This document shows positions 54,603 through 62,399 of a stretch of DNA of 64,000 bases, in pieces. Every line of letters begins with the position of its first letter. Positions within the stretch are counted from its first letter, which is position 1. The translations under genes were made by a program, and so were the position numbers. The notes under the pieces are model-generated. The model had not been told where the DNA came from. It saw only the letters and a program-made list of their open reading frames with translations, and did no database searches. This DNA comes from Salisaeta longa DSM 21114 (GTDB taxonomy: Bacteria > Bacteroidota > Rhodothermia > Rhodothermales > Salinibacteraceae): NCBI RefSeq assembly GCF_000419585.1, contig NZ_ATTH01000001.1, positions 1,634,005 to 1,698,004 of the forward strand, in the 5' to 3' direction.

Positions 54603-55118
54603 ATGATACGCACTGCTGCAACTTCTCTTGCCACGTTTGTCACCTGCTTCATGATTATGCTGCTTGCGGGCAGCGAGATGGCATACGCACAAACGATTCC
54701 CGATGCCAACACCAACCCGAACATTCAGACCTACGGCCGGCCGGGCTACCCAAAAATTACGATCTTCGTGTGGGGCACCCCCACCGGCGGCACGTGGTCT
54801 ATTGAAGAGGGCACCGACCTCGTGGAGTTCCTAAGCGTGTCGGCCGGCGGCGCCAACATGACGGATCGCAGCCCCGACCGCCGCATCATCTACACCGTGA
54901 AGCTGTACCGCCGCGGCCAAACCCAGGGCGACCCGATTTTTTCGGCCCGCCTGGAAAACTTATTCGCACGGCGCATCGATTATCCGAGCCTGCAAAATGG
55001 AGACATCCTGGTGCTAGACGCCGAGGCCAAGCGCCGCCTCTCGTGGCGCGACATCTCGCAGGTTACCGGAACCATCGCGTCGCTCGTCTCCACCTATTTG
55101 CTTCTCGATCGCCTGTAA
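54603..55118 (+). CDS. Minimal SLBB-domain polysaccharide export protein
   Basis: The 171-aa protein has a signal peptide (to about residue 29) and one SLBB-like domain: ITIFVWGTPTGGTWSIEEGTDLVEFLSVSAGG (about 51-82, here cited by its ends ITIFVWGTP and EFLSVSAGG), then PSLQNGDILVLD. It ends in a hydrophobic helix. The polysaccharide-export (PES) domain that precedes SLBB in Wza proteins is missing. It therefore may be a periplasmic or outer-membrane accessory to the co-polymerase encoded 90 bases upstream, not a full secretin-like channel. Confidence 0.75.
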   Translation: MIRTAATSLATFVTCFMIMLLAGSEMAYAQTIPDANTNPNIQTYGRPGYPKITIFVWGTPTGGTWSIEEGTDLVEFLSVSAGGANMTDRSPDRRIIYTVKLYRRGQTQGDPIFSARLENLFARRIDYPSLQNGDILVLDAEAKRRLSWRDISQVTGTIASLVSTYLLLDRL

Positions 55119-56333: not shown

Positions 56334-57107
56334 ATGAAAGCGGTTATCCTTGCCGGCGGATACGGCACGCGCCTGTCCGAAGAAACCTCGGTACGCCCCA
56401 AGCCCATGGTGGATATTGGGCGCCAGCCGATCCTCTGGCACATCATGAAGATCTACCTTGCCCACGGCGTCGACGAGTTTATCGTGTGCTGCGGCTATAA
56501 GGGCGAGGTCATCAAGCAGTACTTTGCCGACTACCGCCAGCAGCGGTCCGACATCACGTTCGACTTTCGCACCGGCACCGAGACGATCCACCGCAACCAT
56601 TGCGAGCCGTGGCAGGTGACCCTCGTAGACACCGGACAGGACACCATGACCGGCGGCCGCTTAAAGCGCGTGCGGTCTTTTGTGGGCGACGAGACGTTTT
56701 GCCTAACCTACGGCGACGGGGTCACCGATCTCAACGTGCGCGCCAGCATCGACTTTCACCGCTCGCACGGCAAGCACGCCACCCTCACCGCTATTCAGCC
56801 GCCCGGCCGCTTTGGCGTGTTCAACCTGCCCGACGACGATTCCACCATCACCCACTTCCGCGAAAAACCACAGGGCGATGGTGCCTGGATCAACGGCGGC
56901 TTCTTCGTCCTGGAGCCCGACGTGTTCGACTACATCGCGGGCGACGCCACGGTGTGGGAGCAGGAGCCGCTCATGCAGCTCGCCCACGATGCGCAACTAG
57001 CCGCCTTCCGTCACGAGGGCTTCTGGCAACCCATGGATACGCTGCGCGACAAGAACTATCTCGAATCACTCTGGGAATCAGACAGCCCGCCGTGGAAGAT
57101 CTGGTAA
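56334..57107 (+). CDS. rfbF: Glucose-1-phosphate cytidylyltransferase
   Basis: RfbF makes CDP-glucose from CTP and glucose 1-phosphate. The 257-aa protein carries the RfbF-specific signature: [20 protein letters not shown] (about 6-25), then [29 protein letters not shown] (the metal-binding Asp) and the terminal [17 protein letters not shown]. The next gene is not a CDP-glucose 4,6-dehydratase by clear signature, which leaves the CDP-sugar product open. Confidence 0.93.
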
Positions 57108-57139: not shown

Positions 57140-58285
57140 ATGCCTCCCTTCGCTCCTTCCGTGCCCACCGCCACCCGCACCGGTCCCCCGGTGCGCACGC
57201 TCGACCTCGACTACATGGCCGACGCGCTGGATGATACCTTCCGCGCCATGGCCGGCACGCGCCTCCTCATTACCGGCGGGGCGGGCTTCCTGGGCTACTA
57301 CCTGGTGCAGTCGGTCCTCCATTGGAACGCCACCCGCGGCGCCGATGCCCCCGTTGCGGTTGTGGCCGTCGACAACTTCATGCGCGGCCGCCCGCGCTGG
57401 CTCGACCGCTGCGCCGCCACCTACGACACGCTCACCGTAGGCACGCACGACATCACCGCGCCGCTGCCCGACACGTGGGGCGCGTTCGACTTCATCGTGC
57501 ATGCCGCCTCTATCGCCTCGCCCACGTTCTACCGCAAGCACCCGCTGGCCACGATGGATGCCAACGTGCAGGGCCTGCGCCACCTGCTCGACTATGCCGT
57601 GGCGCGCGACCACGCCGGCCACCCGCTGCACGGACTCCTCTTTTTCTCAAGCAGCGAAATCTACGGCGACCCGGAGCCCGCGGCCATCCCCACACCCGAG
57701 ACCTATCCCGGACGCGTATCGTGCACCGGCCCCCGCGCCTGCTACGACGAGTCGAAGCGCTATGGCGAAACGCTGTGCGTCAACTACGCAGCCGCGCACG
57801 GCGTGCCGGTGAAAACCGCGCGCCCCTTCAACAACTTCGGCCCCGGCCTCTCGCTGCACGACCGCCGCGTACCGCCTGACTTTGCGCGCGACGTGCTGGC
57901 CAATCGCGACATCGTGATGCTCTCCGACGGATCGCCCACCCGCACCTTCTGCTACGTGGCCGACGCCATCATCGGCTACTACAAGATTCTGGTGCACGGC
58001 ACGCCCGGCGCCGCCTACAACATTGGCACCGATGCGCCCGAGGTGTCCATCGCCGACCTTGGCGCGCGCTTCGTGACGCTCGGCCGTGAGCTGTTCGACT
58101 ACACCGGCCAGGTGGTCCGCGAAACCGCCGACGACCCGCAGTACCTCACCGACAACCCGAACCGGCGCTGCCCCGACATCACCAAGGCGCGCACGACGCT
58201 CAACTACGAGCCGCGCATCTCGCTCGACGAGGGCCTGAAGCGCTCGCTCTTATGGTACGCCACCACCTTCACCGAAGACTTTTGA
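57140..58285 (+). CDS. UXS-like NAD-dependent sugar-nucleotide SDR
   Basis: The 381-aa extended SDR has a 35-residue N-terminal extension, the NAD motif ITGGAGFLGYYL (about 48-59), catalytic SSSEIYGDP and YDESKRYGE (YxxxK), and GPRACYDESK, which is a hallmark of UDP-glucuronate decarboxylases. A role making UDP-xylose from the product of the next gene (ugd) fits, but the neighbour rfbF also allows a CDP-sugar substrate. Relatives next to rfbF are often simply called NAD-dependent epimerases. Confidence 0.75.
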   Translation: MPPFAPSVPTATRTGPPVRTLDLDYMADALDDTFRAMAGTRLLITGGAGFLGYYLVQSVLHWNATRGADAPVAVVAVDNFMRGRPRWLDRCAATYDTLTVGTHDITAPLPDTWGAFDFIVHAASIASPTFYRKHPLATMDANVQGLRHLLDYAVARDHAGHPLHGLLFFSSSEIYGDPEPAAIPTPETYPGRVSCTGPRACYDESKRYGETLCVNYAAAHGVPVKTARPFNNFGPGLSLHDRRVPPDFARDVLANRDIVMLSDGSPTRTFCYVADAIIGYYKILVHGTPGAAYNIGTDAPEVSIADLGARFVTLGRELFDYTGQVVRETADDPQYLTDNPNRRCPDITKARTTLNYEPRISLDEGLKRSLLWYATTFTEDF

Positions 58286-58290
58286 CCCCC

Positions 58291-59703
58291 ATGCATATCT
58301 CCATTGTTGGCACCGGATACGTTGGCCTCGTCAGCGGCGTGTGCCTTGCGGAAAAAGGCCACACGGTAACGTGCGTCGACATCGACGCCGCCAAAGTGCA
58401 GCAGATCAACCAGGGCGACCCGCCCATCTACGAAGCGGGGCTTGCCGAACTGCTCGCGCGCACCGTGGGCACGCGGCTTTTTGCCACCACCGATCTTCCC
58501 GCTGCGGTGCACGCCTCCGACCTCACGCTTATTGCCGTAGGCACGCCGTTTGACGGCACCACCATCGACCTCTCGTACATCAAACAGGCCGCCCGCGACG
58601 TGGGCGCGGCGCTGCGCACCAAAGACGCGTACCACGCTGTCATCGTAAAAAGTACCGTGGTGCCCGGCACCACGAGCGACGTTGTGCGCCCGCTGCTCGA
58701 AGAAGCCGCTGGAAAACGCGCGGGCCGCGATTTTGGCGTGGGCATGAACCCGGAGTTCCTGCGCGAGGGCACGGCCATCGAGGACTTTATGGCCCCCGAT
58801 CGCATCGTGATGGGGGGCATGGACGAACGCACGCTCGACCGGCTGGACGCGCTCTACGCCGTCTTCCCGGATACCGATAAGCTGCGCACAACGCCGCGTA
58901 CCGCCGAGATGATTAAGTATGCTGCCAACGCCTTGCTGGCTACGCTCATCTCGTACAGCAATGAAATCGGAAACCTGTGCAGCGCGCTGGGCGACATCGA
59001 CGCGCAAGACGTTATGCGCGGCGTGCACCTCGACAAGCGCATGAGCCCGCTCCTGCCCGACGGCTCGCGCATTACCCCCGGCTTTACAAGCTACCTGTCC
59101 GCGGGCTGCGGCTTTGGCGGCAGCTGTTTCCCGAAGGATGTGAAGGCGCTCGTCGCCCACGGCTCGTCGGCCCAGGTGCCTATGCCGTTGCTGCAATCGG
59201 TGCTCGACATCAACGCCGCGCAGCCGCAGCAGATGCTCCGCTTGTTGCGCGCGCACCTTCCCGACCTGCGCGGCCGCCGCGTGGCGGTGCTCGGCCTTGC
59301 CTTTAAGCCCGGCACCGACGACGTCCGCGAATCGCCCGCGCTGCCGGTGATCCGGTCGCTGCGCGCGGAAGGCGCCCACGTGATGGCATACGACCCGGTG
59401 GCCGCGCACGAGGCGCAGGCCGTGCTGGGCACCGAAGGCATCACGTATGCCCCCTCGCTTGCCGCGGCGCTTTCCGACGCTGAGGCTGTGCTGCTCATCA
59501 CGCGCTGGCCCGCGTTTGCCGAGGTCCCCGCGCTGCTGGAGGGCCGCTCGCCCGCGCCGGTGGTGATTGACGGGCGGCGCATGCTGGCCAAAGATAGCGT
59601 GCCGCGCTACGCGGCCATCGGGTGGTCGTCCACATCAACGACCGGCGACGGCACGGCCACGGCGGCGCCATCGCTTTCACACACAGCAACGGCCCCGTCA
59701 TGA
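58291..59703 (+). CDS. ugd: UDP-glucose 6-dehydrogenase
   Basis: Ugd oxidises UDP-glucose to UDP-glucuronate with two NAD. The 470-aa protein begins MHISIVGTGYVGLVSGVCLAE (given as VGTGYVGLV), then NPEFLREGTAIEDF (about 153-166), KYAANALLATLISYSNEI, and the catalytic cysteine Cys279 in GFGGSCFPKD. The C-terminal domain has GLAFKPGTDDVRESPA. Its last 25 residues are a Ser/Thr/Ala tail. Its stop overlaps the next start (ATGA, 59700-59703). Confidence 0.95.
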   Translation: MHISIVGTGYVGLVSGVCLAEKGHTVTCVDIDAAKVQQINQGDPPIYEAGLAELLARTVGTRLFATTDLPAAVHASDLTLIAVGTPFDGTTIDLSYIKQAARDVGAALRTKDAYHAVIVKSTVVPGTTSDVVRPLLEEAAGKRAGRDFGVGMNPEFLREGTAIEDFMAPDRIVMGGMDERTLDRLDALYAVFPDTDKLRTTPRTAEMIKYAANALLATLISYSNEIGNLCSALGDIDAQDVMRGVHLDKRMSPLLPDGSRITPGFTSYLSAGCGFGGSCFPKDVKALVAHGSSAQVPMPLLQSVLDINAAQPQQMLRLLRAHLPDLRGRRVAVLGLAFKPGTDDVRESPALPVIRSLRAEGAHVMAYDPVAAHEAQAVLGTEGITYAPSLAAALSDAEAVLLITRWPAFAEVPALLEGRSPAPVVIDGRRMLAKDSVPRYAAIGWSSTSTTGDGTATAAPSLSHTATAPS

Positions 59704-60248
59704 TCTTTACGCCCCTCGCCATCGCGGGCGCGTACCGCGTCGACCTTGCCACCCACGGCGACGACCGCGGCTTCTTTGCACGGATCTGGTGCGAAGACGA
59801 AGCCCGTGCCCACGGCTGCACGCCGCACATGGTGCAGGCCAACGCCAGCTACACCGCAGCGGCGGGCACCGTACGCGGCCTGCACTACCAGCGCGCGCCG
59901 CATGCCGAGGCGAAGCTCGTACGCTGCACGGCCGGCGCCCTCTACGACGTGATCGTCGACGTTCGCCCGGAGTCGCCGACGTACCTGCAGCACCTGGGGC
60001 TTGAGCTAACGGCAGCGAACCGCACGATGCTCTACCTGCCCGAAGGCTGTGCCCATGGCTACCAGACGCTAGCGCCCGACACCGAAGCGTTCTACTTCGT
60101 CTCGGCCCCGTACGCCCCCGCGGCCGAAGCCGGCCTGCGCTACGACGATCCGGCCCTCGCTATCGACTGGCCGCACGCGGTGACGAACGTCTCTGCCAAA
60201 GACCGCGCCTGGCCGCTGCTCCACGATGCAACCCCCTCTGCCCCATGA
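59700..60248 (+). CDS. RmlC/RfbC-like sugar 3,5-epimerase
   Basis: The 182-aa cupin follows dTDP-4-dehydrorhamnose 3,5-epimerase: GDDRGFFARIW (about 20-30), the catalytic histidine in GTVRGLHYQRAP (about 59-70), YLPEGCAHGYQTL with the catalytic-region residues, and YDDPALAIDWP near the end. In this cassette it may act on a keto-sugar other than the rhamnose precursor, since no rmlA/B/D genes are present. It is coupled by ATGA overlaps to both ugd and the next gene. Confidence 0.85.
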   Translation: MIFTPLAIAGAYRVDLATHGDDRGFFARIWCEDEARAHGCTPHMVQANASYTAAAGTVRGLHYQRAPHAEAKLVRCTAGALYDVIVDVRPESPTYLQHLGLELTAANRTMLYLPEGCAHGYQTLAPDTEAFYFVSAPYAPAAEAGLRYDDPALAIDWPHAVTNVSAKDRAWPLLHDATPSAP

Positions 60249-61012
60249 CGGCTCCCGTTGCTTTGTTGCCCTGCGCGGGGCGCGCGCGCCGATTGGGGCG
60301 CTTGCCGTGTAGCAAGGAAGTATTGCCGATCCGCTATGCCGCAGCCCCCACGGTAACGGTTGTGATGGAGCCCTTGCTGCGGCAGCTTCACGCCGCGGGC
60401 GTTGGCGAGGCCCACGTGATTCTACGCCGCGGCAAGTGGGACATCCCGGCGTTCTTGGGCGACGGCGCGGCCTACAACCTGGCGCTGAGCTACCTGATCG
60501 CCGCCACCGATTTCGGCACGCCCTTCACGCTGGATGCTGCCTATCCGTTTGTACACAACCGCACGGTGGTGCTCGGCTTTCCCGACATCCTGATCGAACC
60601 GGAGGGCGTGATCCGACCACTACTCGACCGCTTTTCGAACACAGCCGCCGACGTCGTGCTGGGATGCTTTCCGGCGCCCGAGCCGTCGAAGGTCGACATG
60701 GTACAGGTGGAAGCGGGTCGCGTGACCGACCTTGTGATCAAACCACCGGCCACCGACCTGACCCACGCCTGGGTGCTGGCCGTCTGGGGCCCGCGCTTCA
60801 CCCAGCACCTGCACGACACCGTCGCCGCGTGGCAGCGCCGGCCGGCCGATGCGCTCTATGCACACGAGCGCTACGTTGGCCACGTGCTGCAGGACGCACA
60901 TGCCGCCGGCCTCCGCATTGACGCCGTTTCGTTTCCTGATGGACGCTTTCGGGACGTAGGTACGCCCGACGCCCTCGCCCACACCTTTCATTCCGTTACC
61001 GACCAGCCATGA
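60245..61012 (+). CDS. Nucleotidyltransferase of the cassette (RmlA-like)
   Basis: The 255-aa protein has a sugar-1-phosphate nucleotidyltransferase N-terminus, but an altered one: LLPCAGRARRLGRLPCSKEVLPI (about 7-29; the usual form is AAGxGTRL followed by PK), then VVLGFPDILIEP with the metal Asp, MVQVEAGRVTDLVIKP and GRFRDVGTPDAL at the end. It may prefer an unusual sugar phosphate or have lost activity. The start overlaps the epimerase stop, and the stop overlaps the next start. Confidence 0.7.
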   Translation: MTAPVALLPCAGRARRLGRLPCSKEVLPIRYAAAPTVTVVMEPLLRQLHAAGVGEAHVILRRGKWDIPAFLGDGAAYNLALSYLIAATDFGTPFTLDAAYPFVHNRTVVLGFPDILIEPEGVIRPLLDRFSNTAADVVLGCFPAPEPSKVDMVQVEAGRVTDLVIKPPATDLTHAWVLAVWGPRFTQHLHDTVAAWQRRPADALYAHERYVGHVLQDAHAAGLRIDAVSFPDGRFRDVGTPDALAHTFHSVTDQP

Positions 61013-62310
61013 TTATCGTAGACACCGCCCTTAAGAAGCGCGCCGCGGCCAATAATCCAATTCGCGTTGCCCTCATCGGCGCCGGCTACATGGGCCGGGC
61101 CATAGTGCGCCACGTGCTGCACGAGGTGCCCGGCCTGGCGATCGTTGCCATCTTTAACCGCACGCTTCCGCGGGCTCGGGAAGCGTATACCGCCGCCGGA
61201 CTCGATGACAGCGCGGTTGTTACCGTGAACACCCCAGCCGAGGCCACCGCGGCCATCGAGCGGGGGCAATACGTCGTGAGCGACGTGCCCGAGGCCGTCG
61301 TGCAGGCCGGTCCCATCGACGCCGTGTTGGAAGCGACCGGCGCCGTCGCCTTTGGCCTCGACGTAACGCTCGACGCCATCCGCCACGGCAAGCACGTGGT
61401 GTTGCTCAACGCCGAGCTCGATGCCACCCTAGGACCGATCCTCAAGACCTACGCCGACGATGCGGGCGTCATCCTCACCAATGCCGACGGCGACCAGCCC
61501 GGCGTGGTCATGAACCTGATGCGCTTTGTCGAGATGACCGGCTACCGCCCTGTGCTCGCAGGCAACATCAAAGGACTCATCGACCCCTATCGGACGCCCA
61601 AAACGCAGCAGCGCTTTGCCGAGCAGCACAACCAGCGCCCGCATATGGTCACGTCGTTTGCCGACGGCACCAAGATTTCTGCAGAAATGGCCGTCGTGGC
61701 AAATGCCACCGGCTTTGGCGTGGGGCAACGCGGCATGTACGGTCCTACGTGCGCGCACGTGAACGACGCCGTCGGCCTGTTTCCAGAAGATCAGTTGCTG
61801 GACGGCGGTCTGGTGGATTACGTACTGGGCGCCGAGCCCGGTCCGGGCGTGTTTGTGATTGGGTACAACGAAGACCCCGTGCGCGCGCCGTACATGTCGT
61901 ACCTCAAGATGGGTGACGGGCCGTTCCACGTGTTCTACACGCCGTACCACCTGCCCATGTGGGAGGCCCCGCTCTCGGTGGCCCGTGCGGTGGACTTCCA
62001 TGACGCGGTTATCGCACCGCAGGGCGGCCCCGTTGCGCGCGTGCTCACGCTCGCCAAGCGCGACCTACGCGCCGGCGAGACGATCGACGGGCTGGGCGGC
62101 TTTATGACCTATGGCGTGCTGGAAACCGAAGCCGAGGCCGCTATGCACAACCTGCTACCCATCGGACTCGCCGAGGGCGCTACGCTCACCCGCGACGTGC
62201 CGCAGGATGAAGCGTTGACGTTCGATGCCATCGCGCGCCCCGCGGGGCGCCCCCTCGACCGGCTGTGGAATGAACAGGTCGAGCGATTTGGATCAACAGT
62301 CGACGCCTGA
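61009..62310 (+). CDS. Homoserine dehydrogenase-like oxidoreductase with SAF domain
   Basis: The 433-aa protein has an NAD(P)-binding domain (VALIGAGYMGRAIV, about 20-33, with VLEATGAVAFG and HVVLLNAELDATLGP) resembling homoserine dehydrogenase, then a middle domain and a C-terminal SAF-type domain (about 350-420, LAKRDLRAGETIDGLGGF). SAF domains also occur in sialic acid synthase and antifreeze-like proteins that handle sugar acids. Being the last gene of an ATGA-coupled sugar-nucleotide cassette, it probably makes or modifies an unusual sugar or its substituent. The substrate is unknown. Confidence 0.72.
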   Translation: MIIVDTALKKRAAANNPIRVALIGAGYMGRAIVRHVLHEVPGLAIVAIFNRTLPRAREAYTAAGLDDSAVVTVNTPAEATAAIERGQYVVSDVPEAVVQAGPIDAVLEATGAVAFGLDVTLDAIRHGKHVVLLNAELDATLGPILKTYADDAGVILTNADGDQPGVVMNLMRFVEMTGYRPVLAGNIKGLIDPYRTPKTQQRFAEQHNQRPHMVTSFADGTKISAEMAVVANATGFGVGQRGMYGPTCAHVNDAVGLFPEDQLLDGGLVDYVLGAEPGPGVFVIGYNEDPVRAPYMSYLKMGDGPFHVFYTPYHLPMWEAPLSVARAVDFHDAVIAPQGGPVARVLTLAKRDLRAGETIDGLGGFMTYGVLETEAEAAMHNLLPIGLAEGATLTRDVPQDEALTFDAIARPAGRPLDRLWNEQVERFGSTVDA

Positions 62311-62363: not shown

Positions 62364-62399
62364 AAAGAGGCTCACAAGCACACACTTGCGAGCCTCTTT
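62364..62399. terminator. Strong bidirectional terminator closing the exopolysaccharide locus
   Basis: AAAGAGGCTC-a-CAAG and CTTG-c-GAGCCTCTTT form a 14-bp stem with one mismatch around a 6-base loop, with A and T runs on the two sides. It serves the rightward locus and the leftward susD group. Confidence 0.9.

Follow-up and report, generated by a model that had tools for sequence, protein, structure and literature searches.

Six + strand genes close an exopolysaccharide locus in the 64,000-nucleotide stretch of Salisaeta longa DSM 21114 analysed here (contig NZ_ATTH01000001.1, positions 1,634,005 to 1,698,004; the window). They form one run of rfbF, a UXS-like SDR gene, ugd, rmlC, a sugar nucleotidyltransferase gene and the gene for a SAF-domain oxidoreductase (DRL). 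Our analysis suggests that this cassette is a complete gene set for one unusual surface-polysaccharide sugar. A rare branched sugar, for instance of the apiose or streptose type, is suggested because the last enzyme resembles one that rearranges carbon skeletons. A branched sugar was among the products suggested by a preliminary description of this DNA and is now the most likely one. The cassette is best explained as a new form of branched nucleotide-sugar biosynthesis; as that description had supposed, we found no published pathway into which the genes fit. It had given the gene order exactly, with the ATGA overlaps at 59700 (ugd/rmlC), 60245 (rmlC/nucleotidyltransferase) and 61009 (nucleotidyltransferase/DRL) behind rfbF and the SDR gene. 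Its picture of a coherent one-sugar cassette stands, but it misidentified the key enzyme and stressed a nucleotidyltransferase motif that proved unremarkable.

For comparison across genomes, loci were selected by DRL similarity only (80 from genome contigs, pooled with relatives and plasmids) and their genes were labelled by profiles. This gave 93 module loci, 66 of them with full context, a set biased to sequences close to the window's DRL and to cyanobacteria. All 66 full-context loci carry rmlC, and an rfbF-type cytidylyltransferase, canonical or divergent, is present in 62. Module loci occur in at least 14 phyla, and because the same core recurs so widely the arrangement is not due to chance. 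Gene order is conserved beyond close relatives, being shared by loci of Cyanobacteria, Desulfobacterota and Chloroflexota and by one on a contig binned as archaeal. This conservation supports the earlier proposal that the six genes build one sugar for the exopolysaccharide: they behave as a single nucleotide-sugar module serving a surface polysaccharide. Co-occurrence of DRL with rfbF and with the nucleotidyltransferase had been put forward as a check; it was found for the rfbF-type gene, but the nucleotidyltransferase is present in only 9/66 loci. The module genes are all absent from five loci of the wider DRL family. The idea that rmlC is dispensable in UXS-type loci was rejected, since profile labelling places it in all full-context loci.

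DRL and the other cassette enzymes

The last gene (61009-62310, + strand) encodes a protein with Rossmann, DRL_cat (PF21135, 166 bits) and SAF domains. Its predicted model (pLDDT 85.7) aligns with DXR-II of Brucella abortus (PDB 3upy) across 426 residues (Z 47.1; 34% identity), and homology to DXR-II (PDB 3upl/3upy) is full-length with all three domains in common. By this likeness the protein would be a DXR-II-like NAD(P)-dependent reductoisomerase, and we propose it as the terminal enzyme. DXR-II rearranges the α-hydroxyketone skeleton of 1-deoxy-D-xylulose 5-phosphate (DXP) and reduces the resulting aldehyde. The protein had been described as homoserine dehydrogenase-like and its SAF domain compared with sialic acid synthase. 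Neither likeness was borne out: no homoserine dehydrogenase domain reaches the Pfam cut-off, the only match being the PF03447 Rossmann domain at 21.4 vs 24 bits, and the protein has no NeuB domain, its SAF domain following the oxidoreductase part.

The cassette DRL differs from DXR-II in clade, in two of three anchoring residues and in its setting among sugar-nucleotide genes. Module proteins separate from the DXR-II clade, in which Brucella groups with Priestia (97/94). Among the fosmidomycin-anchoring residues, Lys191 is replaced by Asn and Thr229 by Ile/Leu, each in 91/93 module proteins, while Lys193 is kept; the equivalent of Tyr322 is retained as well. Loss of phosphonate-anchoring residues is as expected, since a substrate other than DXP is proposed, and a canonical DXR is encoded separately in the genome. 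The protein fits the uncharacterised DLO1 group in having a hydrophobic residue at position 229 (Ile/Leu/Val in DLO1), in its clade apart from DXR-II and in shared taxa (Nostoc/Anabaena, Deinococcus, Cyclobacteriaceae, Rhodothermus and Coxiella), the comparison being with the DLO1 taxa listed by Carretero-Paulet et al. 2013 (PMC3847144) and not accession by accession. That study assigned the family no function (PMC3847144); the present analysis proposes one. We found no literature linking SAF proteins to CDP-glucose or ring contraction among open-licence papers.

A second DRL-family clade occurs in the window's order (L041-L044), 35-39% identical to the window protein, in loci without any module genes. 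A pattern search of viral contigs gave no relative; phage records with hits are unannotated Listeria records (34% identity).

The first gene, rfbF (56334-57107, + strand), is by its sequence unambiguously that of a glucose-1-phosphate cytidylyltransferase, the maker of cytidine diphosphate (CDP)-glucose (TIGR02623 equivalog, 438 bits against a cut-off of 300). The UXS-like SDR (57140-58285, + strand), a putative NDP-glucuronate 4-oxidase/decarboxylase, has human UXS1 as its closest solved structure (PDB 2b69, E 6e-47) and retains the UXS motifs SSSEIYGDP, GPRACYDESK and TRTF (the S-x-E, YxxxK and Arg set); it is expected to be the unit making a 4-keto-pentose. At another site the genome encodes a canonical UXS, a paralogue of this SDR that is closer to UXS1 (E 2e-107) than the divergent cassette protein. 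The nucleotide-sugar 6-dehydrogenase Ugd (58291-59703, + strand; TIGR03026, 412 bits) keeps the catalytic Cys motif GCGFGGSCFPKD. A second ugd, 44% identical to it, adjoins the canonical UXS gene, forming a separate pair with this UDP-xylose synthase at G000:C1:120531-122945. The RmlC-like 3,5-epimerase (59700-60248, + strand; PF00908, 205 bits) scores 155.1 bits against TIGR01221, whose equivalog cut-off is 155.75, and its catalytic residues R59, H62, K72, Y132 and D168 are invariant across 88 module RmlCs. Two further rmlC genes lie near RmlB-like genes. With a canonical DXR, a ugd/UXS pair and two other rmlC genes present outside the cassette, its own copies look dedicated; ugd, the UXS-like SDR gene and rmlC are probably not needed here for ordinary UDP-xylose or dTDP-rhamnose.

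No Pfam family matched the nucleotidyltransferase (60245-61012, + strand). Its model has the GalU/RmlA fold (Z about 26), and R16, K24, D114, K166 and D237, equivalents of the RmlA catalytic Arg/Lys/Asp/Lys/Asp, are invariant in 13 aligned members. Structure prediction for this protein and DRL had been suggested as a check in the preliminary description, which found the altered GxGTRL motif striking. Judged from the alignment, the change to GRARRL is ordinary variation within the protein's own family; since the catalytic equivalents are invariant, it is no sign of lost activity. The gene is an optional module member: in the nine full-context loci that have it, it always lies within 1 kb and is co-directional (9/9), and it adjoins the DRL gene in 5/5 relatives with a close homologue. 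No unrelated established function was found for homologues of the last two genes.

Interchangeable upstream units

Exactly one of three upstream units is present in 62/66 full-context loci; one locus has two and three have none. The unit is a GalE-like SDR (SDR2) in 39 loci, the CDP-glucose 4,6-dehydratase gene rfbG in 13, and the UXS-like SDR with ugd, the window's type, in 10. These units have been exchanged repeatedly: the DRL tree implies about 12 changes (the minimum is 2, and shuffled labels need far more). Pontibacter indicus carries rfbG within SDR2-type Pontibacters, and Nodulariaceae carry rfbG within Nostocaceae. Motifs fit each assignment: the dehydratase motif TSDKCYEN is intact in RfbG; SDR2 has SSCSVYG/YAECK, of the oxidoreductase type without the dehydratase acid/base; the UXS-like SDR keeps the oxidase/decarboxylase motifs SSSEIYGDP/YDESK. 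All three units are expected to yield a 4-keto nucleotide sugar, and because of this the RmlC and DRL core must process 4-keto sugars. No terminal reductase other than DRL is evident in the module, which has no RmlD. The picture is of a plug-in design, with a single epimerase-reductoisomerase core and three interchangeable 4-keto-sugar makers.

A homologue of L-2-hydroxyglutarate oxidase, LhgO, accompanies SDR2 in 27/39 loci, rfbG in 1/13 and the UXS type in 0/10, suggesting 2-oxoglutarate-dependent NAD recycling in nucleotide-sugar oxidation, with LhgO recycling the 2-hydroxyglutarate. Such recycling would explain its presence with SDR2, because net oxidation at C4 must dispose of a hydride. 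LhgO is near-exclusive to the GalE-like SDR variant and is seen in L035, L051, L089 and most Nostoc/Deinococcus loci.

An rfbF-type gene is present in each of the ten full-context UXS/ugd loci, canonical in five and divergent in the other five. This speaks for CDP as the nucleotide in this variant too; from such co-occurrence CDP would be the carrier for Ugd and UXS. In about half of the UXS-type loci canonical rfbF gives way to a divergent RfbF-like nucleotidyltransferase paired with a PIG-L deacetylase, and the pair lies next to DRL in L039, L040, L062, L078, L080, L086, L090 and L095. RmlC residue 50 changes from Ser to Gly/Ala in 15/17 UXS-type loci, a suggestive mark of the type, and is still Ser in the window. 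One UXS-type module (L071) is on the contig binned as the archaeon Candidatus Methanoperedens, which could be transfer or mis-binning.

A proposed route to branched furanoses and its alternatives

The reading we favour, with somewhat less than even confidence, is a modular pathway in which a 4-keto sugar is epimerised by RmlC and then contracted and reduced by DRL to a branched furanose. In the order of steps that we infer, RfbF would make CDP-glucose; in the window, Ugd would oxidise C6 and the UXS-like SDR would oxidise C4 and decarboxylate, giving a CDP-4-keto-pentose. Elsewhere RfbG would give a 4-keto-6-deoxyhexose and the GalE-like SDR a 4-keto-hexose. RmlC would then enolise and epimerise the 4-keto sugar at C3, and also at C5 where present. 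By analogy with DXR-II, DRL would carry out an α-ketol (retro-aldol/aldol) rearrangement, contracting the ring, and would use NAD(P)H to reduce the aldehyde so formed to a C-branched (3-C-hydroxymethyl) furanose. The predicted products are apiose-like from the 4-keto-pentose (the window), dihydrostreptose-like from the 4-keto-6-deoxyhexose and dihydrohydroxystreptose-like from the 4-keto-hexose. More tentatively still, we propose that this pathway is widespread and undescribed, the DLO1 reductoisomerase contracting RmlC-processed 4-keto CDP-sugars to a family of C-branched furanoses set by the upstream unit.

Comparable chemistry is known from other systems. UDP-apiose/UDP-xylose synthase (UAXS) combines UXS-like oxidation/decarboxylation, retro-aldol/aldol contraction and NADH reduction, as proposed for the cassette (PMC5324594); in UAXS one SDR does all, whereas the cassette would use a separate, unrelated enzyme for contraction and reduction, plus an epimerase. 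Ring contraction is likewise required for streptose and dihydrohydroxystreptose (DHHS) (PMC9095892). The TDP-dihydrostreptose (StrD/E/M/L) and proposed TDP-DHHS (CBU1834/CBU1838) routes share with the cassette a nucleotidyltransferase, a 4-keto intermediate, an RmlC-type epimerase and a contraction/reduction (PMC9095892). They differ in the TDP carrier and in assigning contraction to an RmlD-type SDR; the cassette has a DXR-like protein instead and its carrier is likely CDP. Coxiella, listed among DLO1 carriers (PMC3847144), makes the branched sugar DHHS, and its ring-contraction enzyme was stated to be unidentified (PMC9095892). The supposed substrate of its RmlC, CBU1838, is a 6-hydroxylated 4-keto sugar, and the study describes the two enzymes still needed as unknown (PMC9095892). 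Both are predicted by the SDR2 module, as a GalE-like 4-oxidase and DLO1; DLO1 is a candidate for ring contraction, which Cross et al. 2022 singled out as the open problem. We found no paper linking DLO1 and CBU1838 in the literature searched.

In Anabaena PCC 7120, the heterocyst envelope polysaccharide (HEP) island alr2825-alr2841 encodes a glucose-1-phosphate cytidylyltransferase (alr2825), an epimerase/dehydratase (alr2827), rfbC (alr2830) and an NAD(P) oxidoreductase (alr2831) (PMC4390870). These annotations match the SDR2-type module of Nostoc loci, with a GalE-like SDR and LhgO where the window has the UXS-like SDR and ugd. No identification of the sugar made by these genes was found in the literature searched; on the proposed pathway, branched sugars not yet reported would occur in many polysaccharides, that of the heterocyst envelope in nitrogen-fixing cyanobacteria among them. 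In Synechocystis, rfbC in an rfbF operon that includes a methyltransferase is not needed for rhamnose (PMC12285223), as would be expected if rfbC genes of this kind belong to the synthesis of a different sugar.

Several points weigh against ring contraction of CDP-sugars by DRL. To our knowledge action of Ugd on CDP-glucose is not established, and we know of no DLO1-clade enzyme that has been assayed. None of four DLO1/DLO2 representatives tested could take the place of DXR (PMC3847144). Given this failure and the want of known DLO1 assays, reductoisomerase chemistry is assigned to DRL by analogy. RmlC is retained in UXS-type loci even though a 4-keto-pentose has no C5 stereocentre and contraction would erase C3. 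The Coxiella carrier is thought to be TDP (PMC9095892), and a DLO1 gene beside CBU1838 could not be confirmed. M123 of CBU1838, proposed to fit the 6-hydroxyl, fails to separate the classes: the equivalent RmlC residue 121 is Y in rfbG, UXS and cyanobacterial SDR2 loci and F in other SDR2 loci, and was rejected as a marker of 6-hydroxy against 6-deoxy substrates because it is not diagnostic. In favour of the proposed pathway, DRL itself appears to follow the incoming sugar, since its residue 278 shifts with the class of upstream unit, from Gly (SDR2) to Ala/Ser (rfbG) in 3/3 within-clade comparisons. It follows class in up to 4/4 informative independent pairs on the tree, for a residue chosen post hoc and a sign test that cannot reach significance (p 0.125). 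Position 179 of DRL, tried as a marker of the UXS class, was rejected with no independent support.

The main rival to ring contraction, and a serious one, is that DRL stands in for RmlD as a plain 4-ketoreductase, RmlC epimerising and DRL reducing C4 to an unbranched CDP-sugar (rhamnose- or talose-like, an L-hexose or a pentose epimer). It would more easily explain the retention of RmlC in UXS-type loci, and it draws on DRL being the only evident terminal reductase and on the structural relatives of its model, which include homoserine dehydrogenase, simple reductases of the Gfo/Idh type and a TDP-sugar 3-ketoreductase. We nonetheless consider it less likely: the closest characterised relative, DXR-II (Z 47), is a reductoisomerase, and among DLO1 carriers only Coxiella has a known matching sugar, which is branched (PMC9095892).

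Two readings divide the genes differently. Under the first, two pathways run side by side, with ugd and UXS leading to UDP-glucuronate/UDP-xylose for the polymer and rfbF, rmlC, the nucleotidyltransferase and DRL to a separate sugar; the ugd and UXS motifs are intact and UDP-glucose is the normal Ugd substrate. This is improbable, as ugd/UXS, rfbG and SDR2 replace one another, a canonical ugd/UXS pair already exists elsewhere in the genome, and RmlC would be left with no evident 4-keto donor. The adjacency of a DXR-like DRL to the nucleotidyltransferase, constant in relatives, recalls a Dxr/IspD-like pair in which DRL would turn a free sugar phosphate into a branched polyol phosphate for activation by its neighbour. 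That scheme is very improbable: the nucleotidyltransferase is absent from 57/66 loci while rmlC is universal, the phosphonate-anchoring residues of DXR-II are gone from DRL, and the nucleotidyltransferase has the fold and catalytic set of the sugar-1-phosphate enzymes GalU/RmlA.

Surroundings of the cassette

The exopolysaccharide locus that the cassette ends also contains a GT4 glycosyltransferase gene (49184) and genes for a polyprenyl sugar transferase (50610), a Wzz/tyrosine-kinase chain-length protein (52173) and a GT2 glycosyltransferase (55351). Between the chain-length kinase and the latter glycosyltransferase, 54603-55118 encodes a protein of 171 aa that appears to carry a signal peptide and matches no Pfam family, possibly an export component. 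Downstream, a strong stem-loop at 62364-62399 (- strand in our annotation; 16-bp stem, T-rich tails on both sides) probably closes the locus as a bidirectional terminator, and beyond it lies a convergent operon carrying a SusD gene.

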